Shown here one piece after another: positions 911-34,054 of a DNA stretch of 64,000 nt (the first letter of the stretch is position 1; every line of letters starts with the position of its first letter). Under the pieces are notes generated by a model, which had not been told where the DNA came from, made no database searches, and worked only from the letters and a program-made list of their open reading frames with translations. Origin of the DNA: Acidimicrobiaceae bacterium (GTDB lineage: Bacteria; Actinomycetota; Acidimicrobiia; Acidimicrobiales; Aldehydirespiratoraceae); the NCBI GenBank assembly GCA_028819005.1, contig JAPPMP010000042.1, positions 1-64,000 of the forward strand. The letters are read 5' to 3'. The translations under genes and the position numbers were made by a program.

Positions 911-1029
911 CCGGGCGCAGCCGGAGCCGCGGGGGCTGGTATCCCACACATCCAACCGCGCCGTGGTCAACCCGGGCGCAGCCGGAGCCGCGGGGCTGGT
1001 AAGCGGTCTCGGCCGGGCGCAGCCGGAGC
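911..1029 (+). repeat. Three copies of CCGGGCGCAGCCGGAGC motif
   Basis: Copies start at 911, 972, 1013 (spacing 61 and 41). Confidence 0.85.
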
Positions 1030-2330: not shown

Positions 2331-3578
2331 TCATCGTGATGCTGCCTTGGTATTGCCTTGGTTGTGGGACAGAGATCGGGCGGAAGCGTCTCGGGTCAGG
2401 GTGAATATCTCGTGTTGGGCATGGCTGCCGCCGATGCGATGAATGTCGGGGCTCAGACGGTCGAGTTCGGAGACCGCAACAGCGTGATCCCCGTCGACAT
2501 GAGCGCGGACTGCTCCAAGCAGCGGTCGTACGACCTCGCCGAATGCGCGCGCGTTCTCCGAAACGGGAGCGGGGTGAGCGGCCGCAAGCCCGGCAAAGAA
2601 CGGCGCCGCTCCGGGATGCTCAGAACGGCGAAGAAACACCAGACAGGCATGCATATCAATGAAGCCGCAAGTATGGCGCTCGGCGATTGTGGCCCAGCGA
2701 TCAGCCAGCAGCGACCAACGGTCGGCCACATCAACACCGACGAGTTCGAGCCGCCAAAGCAGCGATGTCAGATCACACAAACGAAACGCGGTGTTGGCGA
2801 CCGCCAACTCCTGATCGTGGATGGACAGCACCCGCTGGTACTCGCCAGCCGAGATGAGCCTGAGCGCCAGATGCCACCAGATATGGGTTGAGAGCGCGTC
2901 CTGGTCGTGCCACAGTGCGCCAGGCCCATCTAGGAGGCCCAGCGCGCCCTGTTGGTCATCTGCGGTCTCATAGACGTGCGCGAGAGCGTGACGAGCCCAC
3001 AGGTCGTGCGGATCGAGATCCAGAGCCGCGCGCCCGACCTGCTCGGCTTCGTCGAGACGACCGGACTCCTCGAGGGCGAAGGCGAGCTGGCCCTGCACAA
3101 ATCCATAACCGTGATCGTCGGGCCGCCAGCTGTCTGCCGCTGCCCGCGAAGACCTCATCCGACCCTCGGAGTCTCCGACGTGAAGATAGACGTCGTGCGC
3201 TATCCGAACCGCGGCGAAGTCGTGGCTCGTCGCAGCGATTTCGTCCCACGCCTCTGCAGCCCTGCTGTAGTCGCCGGCCAACATGCGTTTCAAAGCCCTC
3301 GCGTGGGCCTGTTCTCGTTCACCTGCGGCGTCCACCCGCTGCTCGACCCGTTCAACTTCAGATCGCAGAGGCGCCGCGTCAGGGGGAGTCCCGCAGAGAA
3401 CGTAGTACGCAGCGTTGAACACCGGGCCGAGAACGAACGCAGGATCATCCCGGTTGGCCTCTTCGAGTTCGGTCATGGGGTCGCCCCGATAGTGCAGCAG
3501 CCTGGCCCAGGCCCGGTCCCAACAGGCAACGCTGTCGGCCGTTCCGCTGACCGGTTCGCCCCAGGAGTCGACATTCAT
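2331..3578 (-). CDS. TPR-repeat protein, TTC38-like
   Basis: 415 aa with TPR-type helices (FALEESGRLDEAEQVGRAALDLDPHDLWARHALAHVYE); start overlaps P450 stop. Confidence 0.75.
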   Translation of the reverse strand: MNVDSWGEPVSGTADSVACWDRAWARLLHYRGDPMTELEEANRDDPAFVLGPVFNAAYYVLCGTPPDAAPLRSEVERVEQRVDAAGEREQAHARALKRMLAGDYSRAAEAWDEIAATSHDFAAVRIAHDVYLHVGDSEGRMRSSRAAADSWRPDDHGYGFVQGQLAFALEESGRLDEAEQVGRAALDLDPHDLWARHALAHVYETADDQQGALGLLDGPGALWHDQDALSTHIWWHLALRLISAGEYQRVLSIHDQELAVANTAFRLCDLTSLLWRLELVGVDVADRWSLLADRWATIAERHTCGFIDMHACLVFLRRSEHPGAAPFFAGLAAAHPAPVSENARAFGEVVRPLLGAVRAHVDGDHAVAVSELDRLSPDIHRIGGSHAQHEIFTLTRDASARSLSHNQGNTKAASR

Positions 3579-5011
3579 TGGATTCGGACCTCGACATGCT
3601 CGATTCCGTTCACGAAGTTCGAACGGACGAACTCCGGCTCACCGACCACCTCGATTGTCAGATTCCGCGCGGCGATCTCGTCGAGCAGAATGGCGAGCTC
3701 CAAGCGTGCCAGTGGGGCGCCGAGACAGAAGTGCGCTCCGCCGCCGCCGAAGGCGACGCTGGCGGGGGGAACCGGTCTGCTCAGGTCGAACCGGTGGGGA
3801 TCGTCGAAAACTGTCTCGTCGAAGTTGGCGGCCGCATACCACATGACAACCTTGTCTCCTTCTTTGAGCGGGGTCCCGGAGAGCTCGGCGTCGCGGGTGA
3901 CGGTTCGCCGGAAATACAGGATCGGCGACGAGTAGCGGATCACCTCCTCGGCCCCGGACTCGATCAGACTGCGGTCGTCGGTGAGGCGGGCGAACTCCTC
4001 ACCGAAGCGATGACACAACAGGGCCAGGTGGCCGATCGCGGAACGAGTGGTCTCGTTGCCGGCGAAGATCATCAGCCGGAAGAAGTTGGTGAACTCGTTG
4101 TCGCTGAGCCGCTCGCCGTCGACCTCAGTGTTGATGAGCTTGGTGATCAGATCATCGGCGGGCTGCCGACGCCGCTGTTCGCCCAGTTCACGTGCGTATT
4201 CGTTGATGCCGTGCGCGGCGGGGCTGTTGAAGGGGAGCAGGCGGAGCTCGGTGGTGTTGCCGTAGGCGTCGGGTTCAAGTGGTTCGTTGGAGGTTCCAGC
4301 CACGAGGTAGTCCGAAAGTTCGATCATGTAGTCGTGATCGGCTTCGGGCACGCCCATCAGGTCGCAGATGACCGAGATCGGGATCGGCTTGGCGACGGCG
4401 GCTATCCAGTCGCCTCCCCCGGTTGCAGTGATGTCGTCGAGACACCGACGGACTCTGTCGCGGATCATGCGCTGGTATTCGAGGACATGCCGAGGTGTGA
4501 AAGCGGAACTCACAAGGCGCCGCAGCCGGGTGTGGACCGGGGGATCCATGTCGATCATCGAAGCCCTGGCTTCGAGAGCGTCTTCGTCGATGTCGTATAT
4601 CTGAATGTGGCCGACCGCTGACGAATAGGTCGTGGCGTCGCGCGAGATCTCGACCACGTCCGCGTATCGAGTGACTGCCCAGAACCCGTTGCTGTCGCCG
4701 GGCGCTCTGCTGTTGCCGGGCGTAGCCGGAGCCGCCGAAGCTTGTGCGGTGCCCACGCCGGGCGCTGTGTTGTTGCCGGGCGTAGCCGGAGCCGCGGAAG
4801 CTTGTGCGGTGCCCACGCCGGGCGTAGCCGGAGCCGTTGCAGCTTGTGCGGTGCCCACGCCGGGCGTAGCCGGAGCTTGATCACTTCCGGTGATTTGGTT
4901 CCAACAGAGACCTGGTGTGGCTCTGACCGCGGCGAACACCTCGTGTGGAATCCCCTGTGAATACAGGTCGACGTCGGCGAGGTCGACAGGGGTTCGGGCC
5001 GCGGTCGCCAA
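3575..5011 (-). CDS. Cytochrome P450 with ~64-aa repetitive insertion near N-terminus
   Basis: FAGNETTRSAIGHLA, EEVIRYSSPILYFRRT, FGGGGAHFCLGAPLARLE heme motif; insertion of APATPGVGTAQ-type repeats. Confidence 0.95.
   Translation of the reverse strand: MATAARTPVDLADVDLYSQGIPHEVFAAVRATPGLCWNQITGSDQAPATPGVGTAQAATAPATPGVGTAQASAAPATPGNNTAPGVGTAQASAAPATPGNSRAPGDSNGFWAVTRYADVVEISRDATTYSSAVGHIQIYDIDEDALEARASMIDMDPPVHTRLRRLVSSAFTPRHVLEYQRMIRDRVRRCLDDITATGGGDWIAAVAKPIPISVICDLMGVPEADHDYMIELSDYLVAGTSNEPLEPDAYGNTTELRLLPFNSPAAHGINEYARELGEQRRRQPADDLITKLINTEVDGERLSDNEFTNFFRLMIFAGNETTRSAIGHLALLCHRFGEEFARLTDDRSLIESGAEEVIRYSSPILYFRRTVTRDAELSGTPLKEGDKVVMWYAAANFDETVFDDPHRFDLSRPVPPASVAFGGGGAHFCLGAPLARLELAILLDEIAARNLTIEVVGEPEFVRSNFVNGIEHVEVRIQ
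4698..4876 (-). repeat. In-frame intragenic repeat array (CCGGGCGTAGCCGGAGC on + strand)
   Basis: Motif starts 4716, 4776, 4818, 4860 (spacing 60, 42, 42), encoding APATPG on the minus strand inside the P450. Confidence 0.9.
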
Positions 5012-15894: not shown

Positions 15895-17235
15895 TCAGCT
15901 GCGAGTGTCGACTAGGACATCCTCGCCGTTGACGATCCGGTTGATCGGGACTGCCTTGGGCGGAATGCCGTTCGTGCCCGCGTAGGTGATCTCGCCGGAC
16001 ATGCCCTGGAATCCAGAGATCTGTTGGACTGCTTCGCCTATCCGGGCGGGTTCGTCACAACCGCAGTCGAGCATTCCCTGGATGCCGAGGAACATGGAGT
16101 CGACGTAGAGGGCCATGAAGCCGCGGCTCTCAAGCGCTTCCCCGTTGACAGCCTCGTAGTGGGCGAGCAGCGAGTCGATCGGGTCGCCTGCACTGATGCT
16201 GGTGTGCGGGGTGTGGGCGATGCCCTCGTTGTTGTCCTCGGATTGGATTCCGGTCGCGTCGAGCGCGTCGGTGCCGATATAGGTGAGTCCGTCGAGTCCC
16301 TGCCCCTCCAGCTGGCCCCGCAGAGCGGTGACCTGGTAGCCGAGAGCGGCGGAGAATACGGCCTCGGTGTTGTCGGAGATGCCGGCGATCTCGTTTACCT
16401 GGGCGGAGAAGTCTGTGTCTTCGAACCATACGTAGGTCTGTGTGCTGACGACTTCGCCGCCACCCGCAATGAACGCCGCGGCGAACGCGTCCGGGTTGAC
16501 GCCGGTGTAGGGGACGCCTTCGCCTTCGGTGAACAGGATTGCCCTGGTTATTCCCTGGTCGAGTGCCCAGTTGGCAGCTGCGGAAGACATCTGGTGGTCG
16601 TCGAAGGTGACCAGATAGGAGTTGATCGAGGCGTCAGCCAGTGTCGGCTCTGTGGACGCAGCGACGAACAGCGGAACCCGTCCTTCGGTGGTCTGCAGAA
16701 TCGGCAGGGCGAAGTCGGCAAACGGTGGCCCGATCAAGAAGTGGGCACCCCAGTCGAGCAGTTCTTCGGCGGCGAGAGCGGCGTCGTCACCGACTTCTGC
16801 CACTCGGACTTCCACGGGACGGCCGTTGACGCCGCCAGCGCAGTTTGCGAGGTCGGCCACGAAAGGCACCAGGTTGGAACCGGGGATGTCGACGAATCCG
16901 ACAACATCGCTGAAGTCCATGGCCATGCCAACCCGGATCGGGTCGCCACTCGGCGCGTCGGCGCAGTCGTCGAGGTCGGCGGCGAGGATGCCGGCAATAT
17001 CGACCGTGTCGTCCATGTGTGGTTCGTCGGCCATGTCGTCGCCGTCGTCGTCCATGTCGCCGTCGTCCATGTGTGGTTCGTCGTCCATATCATCACCGTC
17101 GCCGCCATTGTCATCGTCGCTTTCGTCAACCATGTCGTCAGCGTCGACAGAAGCGTCGTCGCCGTCGTCATCGCCACAGGCCGCGGCAAACAGCGTGAAG
17201 ATCGCGAACAGTGCGATCAGGGTCTTTAGTTTCAT
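15895..17235 (-). CDS. ABC transporter substrate-binding lipoprotein with Asp-rich linker
   Basis: Lipobox-like signal (MKLKTLIALFAIFTLFAAACGDD), Asp/Met-rich low-complexity linker, then periplasmic-binding fold (RVGMAMDFSD, FLIGPPFADFALPIL). Confidence 0.9.
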   Translation of the reverse strand: MKLKTLIALFAIFTLFAAACGDDDGDDASVDADDMVDESDDDNGGDGDDMDDEPHMDDGDMDDDGDDMADEPHMDDTVDIAGILAADLDDCADAPSGDPIRVGMAMDFSDVVGFVDIPGSNLVPFVADLANCAGGVNGRPVEVRVAEVGDDAALAAEELLDWGAHFLIGPPFADFALPILQTTEGRVPLFVAASTEPTLADASINSYLVTFDDHQMSSAAANWALDQGITRAILFTEGEGVPYTGVNPDAFAAAFIAGGGEVVSTQTYVWFEDTDFSAQVNEIAGISDNTEAVFSAALGYQVTALRGQLEGQGLDGLTYIGTDALDATGIQSEDNNEGIAHTPHTSISAGDPIDSLLAHYEAVNGEALESRGFMALYVDSMFLGIQGMLDCGCDEPARIGEAVQQISGFQGMSGEITYAGTNGIPPKAVPINRIVNGEDVLVDTRS

Positions 17236-29259: not shown

Positions 29260-30756
29260 CTAGGGGAAGACGTCGATGAGGTCAGTCACCGGTACGGTCT
29301 GGCCGTCGCCCTCGGTGTGGTCGTAGGCGGCGAGCCGCACCAGATCATCTGCACCGAGCTTGGTGGCGCTGAGCGAGGCAGCACCGCCAGGAAGCGTGAA
29401 GTCGGTGAGGCTCTCAGCCCCTGCCTTGAAACTGTCGTGGGTGAGGTTGACCCCGGCAGCGGTGGCAATCTCCACGAACAGCGCCAGATGGCGACAGTAG
29501 CGTCGGACCGGGTTGAACCAGTTCTCCTCGCCTTCGGCGTAGTCGGTCGGCGGCCGGAGGTCGGCGTCGGGCATGGCTGCTGCGACCACGTCGTTGCATG
29601 CCGATTGATAGAGCGGGTGCTCGTATATCTCGGTGTCGGTCGGGCCGAGCGAAGTGAGCACCCCGTCGGCGATCGACTTGTCGGTGATCGTCTCGCCGAG
29701 GTTGTTGAGCCCACCGGGGTTGTTGTTCCACACCGGGACCTGCCCGTTGAGGCCCGCCAATCCGATACCGCGGATTGTGGCTGCGGGATTGCCCGGGATC
29801 ATGATTGCTTCGGCGCCTGACTCCTTGAAGCGCTCCAGAATAACTTCCAGCTGCTGGTTCTGAGCAAGGGTCTCGCCGTCGTTGGCCTCGATGATCGAGC
29901 GACCGACCACGTTGGCGCCGCGCGCTTCGAAAGCTGCGATAACCGGGTCGACAGTGGCCTCGGCGGCCCGTCCGGCGATTACGTAGACCGGCATCCCCTC
30001 GGTCAGGCGACCGGTCTCGACCAGCAGTCCGAGAAGGTTTTCAGTCGAGAATTCGATGGTGGGGCCGGGGTGATACCAAGGAGCCCGGGACTGTTCGAGT
30101 TCGGCCGCGTTGATTTCGCCTCCGATGAGGATGGTCTCGTTCAGGCCGGTGATGCAGGGGTCCGCGGTTCCAGCGAGTGGTCCGACGAAACCGCCGAGCA
30201 CAGCGAATGTCTCGTTGTCCTCGGTGAGAGCAGTGCATACGCGTTCGGCGTCCACAGGGTCGATCGGGCTGTAATACTCATACACCGCTTCAACAGTTCG
30301 GCCGTTGATGCCGCCGTTGGCGTTGAGGTTGGCGATCAGAGCTTCCCAGACGCCCTGCTGGTCTCCCCAGCCTGCTGGTGACAGGTTGATATCGACAAGA
30401 AGCTCAAAGTTGAGCATTGCGACGCCGACGGTGATCGTGTCTTCGGTGACGCCTCTCCATGAGGCGGTACGAGGTTCGGGTTCGGGCTCTGGTTCGGCCA
30501 TGTCGTCGCCGTCGTCTGCCATGTCGCCGTCGTCGTCGCTGTCTGCCATGTCATCGCTGTCGGCCATGTCATCGTCGTCTGCCATGTCGTCGCTGTCGTC
30601 GGCCATGTCATCGTCGTCTGCCATGTCGCCGCCGCCGTCACCGCTCACTGGTTCGGCGTCGTCGCCGTCGTCGCCTCCGCAGGCAGCGGCCAGCAAAAGG
30701 AAGCTGAGCAGAAGCGCCAGAAGGCGCAAGATCGTGTTCGGTCGCTTGCGAGTCAT
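29260..30756 (-). CDS. ABC transporter substrate-binding lipoprotein with Asp/Met-rich linker
   Basis: Signal with LLLAAACGGD lipobox; (DDMADDD)n linker; periplasmic-binding fold. Confidence 0.9.
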   Translation of the reverse strand: MTRKRPNTILRLLALLLSFLLLAAACGGDDGDDAEPVSGDGGGDMADDDDMADDSDDMADDDDMADSDDMADSDDDGDMADDGDDMAEPEPEPEPRTASWRGVTEDTITVGVAMLNFELLVDINLSPAGWGDQQGVWEALIANLNANGGINGRTVEAVYEYYSPIDPVDAERVCTALTEDNETFAVLGGFVGPLAGTADPCITGLNETILIGGEINAAELEQSRAPWYHPGPTIEFSTENLLGLLVETGRLTEGMPVYVIAGRAAEATVDPVIAAFEARGANVVGRSIIEANDGETLAQNQQLEVILERFKESGAEAIMIPGNPAATIRGIGLAGLNGQVPVWNNNPGGLNNLGETITDKSIADGVLTSLGPTDTEIYEHPLYQSACNDVVAAAMPDADLRPPTDYAEGEENWFNPVRRYCRHLALFVEIATAAGVNLTHDSFKAGAESLTDFTLPGGAASLSATKLGADDLVRLAAYDHTEGDGQTVPVTDLIDVFP

Positions 30757-32615: not shown

Positions 32616-34054
32616 GGTTCCGGCACTTTCAAGGGGATGGTTGCGCCGAGGAAATCGCTGTCGTCGACGGGGGGATACTCGCCGACTCGCAATCGGTACT
32701 CCCCTGGCTCAAGGTCGTCGATCGTGAACACGAAGGTGCCCCAGGACTCGAGCCAGCCGGTGGCGGTCAGGCCCCAACGGCTGCCGACACCCGGATTGAA
32801 CACTTGCGGTCCGGTGACCGTGGCGGCCGTTCCCGTTCCGTCGGAGTGCTGGATCTCAACAATGCCCGAAGATTCGAACCAACGGGAGTAGCCGCGCACG
32901 GTCAGAGGCAGCGTGACCTCGGTGGGGTTTTCGTAGTCGAGTTCGCCGGGCCAGACCACAAAGCTGCCTGAACGGGCGTGGAGTTGCGGGGCGGCCGAAG
33001 CCGACGGGTCGTCGTTGGCGCCTTGAGCGGGAATCACGTCGACCAGCAGACGAGCGGGGTCGCTCAACCTCTGTGCTGCGAACAGTGACGGCTGAGGTGC
33101 GTAGACGTCGATTACGAACTTGCCATCGGGGGCCCGCGCCACGATGGAAGCGAGGTTCCAACTGTCCTCGGATGCGGCGTCGAGACGCGCTCCCTCAAGT
33201 CCTGCGACGCTGATCCTTGCCCAGGTACCGAAGGCGTCGATAGTCAGATCTTCGGGCAGATCCGCGGCCAGCAGCCCACCGCTGTCGTAGTCCCACGCGC
33301 TGCCGAAAGCGATGTGCAAACGATCGCATCCCGGCCCGAGCAGGTGCCACATCTGTGCCACATGGTCGACTCGCGCCTCGCCGTGGCTGACTCCGGTCTC
33401 CCCGTTTATCGGTGCGGGGCCGACGGCTGTGCCGACTGTGGCGCAGGGGTCGTCGAAATAGGAGGTCTGCGCGGCGAAGTTGATTTCCAATCGGTCCGCT
33501 TCCACCCAACCGGTTAGTCGGCGACCCACCTTCAGCTCGCGCCAGGCACCCTCCTGCTCATCGGTTCGTATTGCGCCTGTGCCCTCGATGGCCACCCTTG
33601 GCACGGCGATCATAGCGACCCCGTCGTGTTCGACGCCCGGACCGGAGCGCAAGGTTGCGCGCAGCATGTCGCCCGCAGTCCCCGGATACCACTCGCCGTC
33701 TGCCACGAGGAGGTCGAACAGCAGTGGCGCTTCCTCGTGTCGTTCCGGTGCTGTGGTGGTGGGCGGCTCTGTGGTGGTGGGCGGTGCTGTGGTGGTGGGC
33801 GGTGCTGTGGTGGTGGGCGGTGCTGTTGTCGTGGTGATGGGTGGTGCCGCTGTTGTTGTCGTGGTGGCCGGCTCCGGGGCGGTCGTGTCGGGCGACACAG
33901 TTGTATCGATCGACACGGTCGCATCGGGTGCTGATGGAGAACTGTCATCGGGGCGGTCGGCGGAGTCGCCTCCGCAACCAGATATCAGCAGGGTCGCGCC
34001 GACGACCAGAGCCGCACCGCACCGCACGGACCAGGGTGCATCCGCGAGGCTCAC
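32612..34054 (-). CDS. Secreted lipoprotein with Thr/Pro-rich linker and C-terminal Ig/Gmad2-like domain; AMIN-like middle region
   Basis: LLISGCGGD lipobox; (PPTTTA)n linker from an 18-bp DNA repeat; RSGSFVVWPGELDYENPTEVTLPLTVRGYSRWFES C-terminus. Confidence 0.75.
   Translation of the reverse strand: MSLADAPWSVRCGAALVVGATLLISGCGGDSADRPDDSSPSAPDATVSIDTTVSPDTTAPEPATTTTTAAPPITTTTAPPTTTAPPTTTAPPTTTEPPTTTAPERHEEAPLLFDLLVADGEWYPGTAGDMLRATLRSGPGVEHDGVAMIAVPRVAIEGTGAIRTDEQEGAWRELKVGRRLTGWVEADRLEINFAAQTSYFDDPCATVGTAVGPAPINGETGVSHGEARVDHVAQMWHLLGPGCDRLHIAFGSAWDYDSGGLLAADLPEDLTIDAFGTWARISVAGLEGARLDAASEDSWNLASIVARAPDGKFVIDVYAPQPSLFAAQRLSDPARLLVDVIPAQGANDDPSASAAPQLHARSGSFVVWPGELDYENPTEVTLPLTVRGYSRWFESSGIVEIQHSDGTGTAATVTGPQVFNPGVGSRWGLTATGWLESWGTFVFTIDDLEPGEYRLRVGEYPPVDDSDFLGATIPLKVPEP

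Follow-up and report, generated by a model that had tools for sequence, protein, structure and literature searches.

A short genus-specific repeat forms in-frame tandem arrays in a cytochrome P450 gene and in other genes of uncultured marine Acidimicrobiia

Results

A repeat array within an intact cytochrome P450 gene

The stretch of DNA analyzed here, hereafter the window, covers contig C50 of a 3.06 Mb Acidimicrobiaceae genome from its start to 64 kb. Near its start lie two genes on the reverse strand, and copies of one short motif occur both within the second gene and in the non-coding DNA that follows the stop codon of the first:

911..927, + strand: intergenic motif copy CCGGGCGCAGCCGGAGC, third from the acyl-CoA dehydrogenase stop codon (exact match)
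972..988, + strand: intergenic motif copy, second from the acyl-CoA dehydrogenase stop codon (exact match)
1013..1029, + strand: intergenic motif copy directly after the acyl-CoA dehydrogenase stop codon (exact match)
1031-2245, - strand: acyl-CoA dehydrogenase gene (ORF call)
3575..5011, - strand: cytochrome P450 gene, CYP125/CYP124-like, 478 aa, TTG start (ORF call, Pfam p450)
4688..4879, - strand: in-frame insert QAPATPGVGTAQAATAPATPGVGTAQASAAPATPGNNTAPGVGTAQASAAPATPGNSRAPGDSN, about 60-65 codons (alignment with relatives)
4716..4732, + strand: motif core copy CCGGGCGTAGCCGGAGC, coding strand reading APATPG (exact match)
4776..4792, + strand: motif core copy in the P450 gene (exact match)
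4818..4834, + strand: motif core copy in the P450 gene (exact match)
4860..4876, + strand: motif core copy in the P450 gene (exact match)

All seven exact copies that the first-pass annotation had listed were recovered, as were its spacings of 60/42/42 within the P450 gene and 61/41 outside it. Shuffled windows gave 0.09 matches each at up to two mismatches, and no shuffle reached seven. The P450 array also contains half-units (GCGCCCGGC..., translated as NNTAPG/NSRAPG), which account for the 60-bp spacing as 42+18. The non-coding region around 911-1029 holds a second, unrelated tandem family at 272-642 (CACACCCGCGGCAGCGC..., units of 61 and 133 bp), and the contig start (1-75) is a C/A and G homopolymer run that probably reflects low complexity at the end of the assembly. 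Further tandem repeats, their periods 18 bp or related to it, lie at 17008-17119, 30505-30631 and 33746-33871; these are built of triplets such as GTC/GCC/ATG and are possible coding repeats.

The P450 reading frame scores 73.9 bits against the PF00067 profile (curated cut-off 22.8), and its translation retains all core motifs: FAGNETTR, EEVIR and the heme-binding motif FGGGGAHFCLG. Its best PDB relative is 8vxi, CYP125MRCA (E 1.8e-106, residues 105-477), and the database matches at high identity are labeled Acidimicrobiaceae or Acidimicrobiia, every one of them metagenome-assembled. Alignment with relatives gave an insert of about 60-65 residues between GLCWNQ.. and GFWAVTRY, where some 64 had been proposed. 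The alternative of an ancestral domain was checked against P450 relatives at 45-72% identity, none of which carries the insert; the neighboring P450 (6746-8026) is insert-free, as the annotation had stated. Positioned between predicted strands E36-39 and E109-113, the insert occupies the turn between strands beta1-1 and beta1-2. The AlphaFold model assigns pLDDT values below 50 to residues 42-99, predicting the insert to be disordered in line with the earlier suggestion of a tolerated loop, and most of the core is confident. As modeled, the disordered extension of the beta1-1/beta1-2 turn most likely leaves the enzyme undisturbed.

Copy number at the P450 locus differs between sister species

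The insert is present at the same P450 site on contig L031 of a sister species (SB0670_bin_1), with two motif copies compared with four here. The DNA surrounding the insert is 93-95% identical between the two genomes, in the same gene order; the differences within it amount to 33 bp plus 60 bp, both in frame, and explain the whole 31-residue difference in length. In the spacer after the same acyl-CoA dehydrogenase stop codon, L031 possesses one GTA-type copy as compared with the three-copy array at 911-1029, which shows the same divergence, free of frame restriction (61/41). A refined reading of the P450 array emerges from this sequence comparison: rather than arriving as a block fitted to the frame, the array descends from a shared seed copy that was tandemly duplicated in place, with length changes persisting only when in frame.

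A dispersed repeat confined to one genus

Aligning 113 copies from this genome defined a repeat unit of ~33 bp, CGCG-GCTCCGGCTRCGCCCGG-CGAMAGCAACGC in the orientation in which the P450 gene is read, with the core CCGGGCGYARCCGGAGC and often with half-units GCGCCCGGCGAMAGCAAC after it. The 33-bp unit corresponds to 11 codons, and its consensus is stop-free in five of six frames; QASAAPATPGNNTAPGVGTAQ is an example of a peptide encoded by repeat DNA. The genome contains 92 exact cores, so the motif is not confined to the window, and 160 sites (78+82) match with up to two mismatches, against 14 (7+7) for a reversed control; this bears out the annotation's view of a dispersed repeat rather than a P450 domain. 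Exact cores number 92/128/30/66/66 in five genomes of the genus and zero in the sixth, G002, though these look like metagenome-assembled genomes, in which copy numbers may be collapsed. Among 395 genomes sampled across Acidimicrobiia, the ~390 beyond the genus have 0-1 exact cores each. The carriers belong to one genus of uncultured marine actinobacteria, in which the repeat is found in spacers and in dozens of unrelated genes. The motif-free G002 is also the most distant member by GltB identity to this genome (86%), and the simplest history, we infer, is that the spread began after the G002 lineage had split off. A phage origin was dropped, as a 24-base stretch of the repeat had no exact match in a viral contig collection. 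We found no earlier description of such a repeat in Acidimicrobiia in the open-access literature.

Scaffold gaps of 10 N fall exactly within the arrays of nuoG, gltB and a histidine kinase gene (L297, L299, L302), and contigs C20 and C131 of genome G004 terminate inside the nuoG array, indicating that the arrays break short-read assemblies.

The first-pass annotation had likened the repeat to palindromic elements, a label that was not supported. Folding of the element was no better than that of dinucleotide shuffles (z from +0.3 to -0.6), and the mini-hairpin-type sequence GCGNAGC within the core is broken in roughly a quarter of copies; the palindrome or hairpin idea was rejected on both grounds. 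Mobilization by a RAYT was likewise rejected: Y1_Tnp (PF01797), the family screened, was detected in none of the six genomes of the genus, while the same search was positive in five of 14 control genomes. The GTAG of the element is internal, and about half of the copies have GCAG, GCAA or GTGG in its place. As to the terminal inverted repeats and target-site duplications typical of MITEs, the consensus has only CGCG at both ends, and the sites offered no clean empty counterpart for a duplication test.

Array spacing preserves the reading frame in genes

We compared array spacings in genes and in spacers using stretches around motif matches in three genomes (G000, G001 and G004), with genes called by a simple home-made codon model with array-masked codon scores. 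All 62 spacings in genes are divisible by three, compared with 28 of 81 in spacers (Fisher 7e-19), and only multiples of three occur in 29 of 29 in-gene arrays as against 13 of 39 intergenic ones (1.9e-9), exactly the random third; these p-values are indicative, since neither the arrays of one genome nor orthologous arrays, which are related by descent across species, are fully independent of one another, and the comparison carries a risk of circularity in that a gene-breaking array would be scored as spacer. The frame-preserving spacing that had been pointed out in the P450 gene is thus real and general. Three G001 arrays that seem to break this rule (in gltB, nuoG and a histidine kinase gene) each contain a 10-N assembly gap, and frameshifting arrays in these genes were rejected for this reason. 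Hidden pseudogenes at spacer arrays were also rejected: the co-directional gene pairs that were checked on either side of such arrays belong to distinct, complete families (CoaE with UvrB in one case, an SMC-type protein followed by CTP synthase in another), so those arrays hide no broken genes. About two thirds of the motif clusters in the three genomes are located in spacers. Among spacer copies less than 100 bp from a gene 5' end, the APATPG strand is the sense strand in 23 cases and the antisense strand in 8.

Reading frames are biased and the repeat is conserved as DNA

Two neutral, flexible frames, APATPG or PGVAGA, are used in 25 of 35 cases deduplicated by gene and frame (p 4.6e-6), with p 4e-7 for the APATPG frame alone; the TAG-containing frame is used once, with a CAG variant. 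In other genes the same DNA is translated as SGYAR, LRLRP, PGVAGA or GRSRS. Across 79 AP[ATVS][ATVPS]PG hexapeptides, the first alanine is encoded by GCT in 79/79 instances and the following proline by CCG in 79/79, an invariance somewhat inflated by the choice of genes for carrying the motif; GCT makes up 14% of alanine codons elsewhere. No synonymous variant of GCT CCG was present among the 79, even in degenerate copies. Because the codons do not vary, it is the DNA and not the peptide that is conserved.

Host genes and orthologous sites

The hosts encode GltB, NuoL, NuoG, a Mur ligase, CoxA, CoxC, SdhC and an aminotransferase, together with an ABC transporter, a histidine kinase and a B12-binding protein; typically essential genes are among them. 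In glutamate synthase (GltB), the element lies inside the amidotransferase domain. Motif-free orthologues are variable in length at the same loops. Inserts occupy orthologous sites across species in the P450, GltB, NuoG, SdhC, HisC-like and hydantoinase genes (G000 together with G001 or others). Of the G000 sites that could be compared with an orthologous stretch, nearly all are also motif-bearing in G001 or G004; they give no sign of recent transposition, which weighs against the explanation that we favor below.

The NuoL loop (L170 3588 compared with L200, L198, L199 and L203) is of near-equal length in motif-bearing G000 and motif-free G002, and shorter in G001, G003 and G004. Given the match with G002, the element may have replaced sequence in NuoL rather than inserted. 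NuoL was rejected as a clean empty site, and the orthologous sites compared yielded no clean pair of filled and empty sites with exact boundaries. In the linker of the B12-binding protein (L166, L277), the element has opposite orientations in G000 and G001, suggestive of a tolerant site struck more than once. At L135 3396-3540, the element is present in both the C-terminus of CoxA and the N-terminus of CoxC, on either side of the gene boundary, with a spacing of 33 within CoxA and 95 across the CoxA/CoxC boundary.

Discussion

Taken together, a model emerges, to which we assign a probability of roughly 0.8, of a genus-specific dispersed ~33-bp repeat that grew in place as tandem arrays and was frame-filtered in genes. 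The repeat would have spread within the genus after the motif-free G002 lineage split, landing in gene-flanking spacers and in genes, where the lack of a stop in five of six frames would make many landings translatable. Tandem duplication and deletion of a copy with its adjoining DNA would follow, probably through slippage during replication or through unequal recombination; spacers would tolerate any unit length, and genes would retain only multiples of three. Under purifying selection the element would persist chiefly where indels are tolerated, in loops, linkers and termini, and chiefly in frames giving flexible uncharged peptides (APATPG, PGVAGA). Its effects on the proteins are presumably near-neutral, and the element itself is putatively selfish. 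In the P450, the outcome would be the disordered extension of the beta1-1/beta1-2 turn.

Movement in trans of a REP- or MITE-type element by a RAYT or another transposase would fit a copy-number burst specific to one genus and copies near gene ends, and intragenic REPs are known in other bacteria (PMC3733652). We nonetheless consider it unlikely, given the absence of Y1_Tnp from all six genomes, folding at the level of shuffles and the lack of a terminal GTAG/CGTC tag. The core is strongly conserved as DNA whatever the coding frame, and sense orientation is slightly over-represented close to gene 5' ends; both could instead reflect the retention, within and between genes, of a functional DNA signal, for instance an uptake sequence or a site bound by a protein. 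Clustering in tandem arrays that each have their own period and an entirely motif-free species within the genus make such a signal improbable, and the copy count is far below that of known uptake sequences.

Most in-gene copies read APATPG or APAAPG, a reasonable flexible linker, as would be expected if an Ala/Pro-rich module were selected as peptide and spread by recombination between genes. That account is largely refuted, and we regard it as very improbable: most clusters lie in spacers, the codons are frozen, and the same DNA is read as quite different peptides in other genes. Ordinary coding minisatellites that originated independently in each gene, with no dispersed element, would explain why every array has its own period and includes local sequence, and why copy number changes in place; yet a single 17-33 bp core is common to dozens of unrelated loci across five genomes and missing from the sixth, leaving independent origins barely credible. 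The dispersed, frame-filtered repeat remains our preferred reading.

The repeat has counterparts among known systems. The palindromic elements of Rickettsia (RPEs; Ogata et al. 2000, 2002, as cited in PMC10969869 and PMC3767692) are ~100-150 bp palindromes of obligate intracellular bacteria (PMC10969869, PMC3767692). Like them, the present element is a genus-typical small repeat that resides in spacers and in frame in unrelated, often essential protein genes, with inserts at orthologous sites across species; it differs in its conserved length of ~33 bp, the lack of excess folding, its in-gene tandem arrays and its Acidimicrobiia host. No dedicated transposase has been identified for the CGTC class, which includes RPE sequences (PMC3733652). 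In REPs a stem-loop bears GTAG or CGTC as a terminal tag; the GTAG type is associated with RAYT genes and known from Proteobacteria, Cyanobacteria, Chloroflexi and the PVC phyla (PMC3733652). With intragenic GTAG/CGTC REPs the element shares short length, high copy number, a position mainly near gene ends, presence in some ORFs and clusters in some species (PMC3733652), but it has neither a stable stem-loop with a terminal tag nor a RAYT. PARCEL is likewise a tandem repeat coding element spread among unrelated genes, but as a 25-residue amphipathic domain it is conserved as protein and horizontally transferred across phyla (PMC2996958), whereas the present repeat is conserved as DNA and limited to one genus. 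Tandem copies, in-place copy change and multiples of three within genes are shared with coding VNTRs or minisatellites, from which the element departs in having one dispersed seed sequence common to many loci. It is RPE-like in action and resembles intragenic REPs; we file it under neither class, since it is not palindromic by folding, is much shorter than RPEs, and lacks both the tag and a RAYT.

Selfish repeats lying in frame within protein genes are known above all from Rickettsia, in which host reduction was a plausible reason for tolerance. Here the hosts are Acidimicrobiia with 3-Mb genomes and the repeat is far shorter and not palindromic, yet the outcome is the same. It is possible, if doubtful, that this represents a transposase-independent route by which translation-compatible 33-bp selfish DNA repeatedly enters essential genes, expands, and supplies disordered segments proteome-wide. 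The genus provides a natural control in its motif-free species, and species pairs differ in copy number at the same loci; spread without a known transposase, and filtering by selection on frame, peptide and site, are testable here. Short, genus-specific, array-forming repeats that are frame-filtered inhabit genes and spacers alike, and their in-frame tandem copies add floppy loops or tails to proteins, a cytochrome P450 among them.
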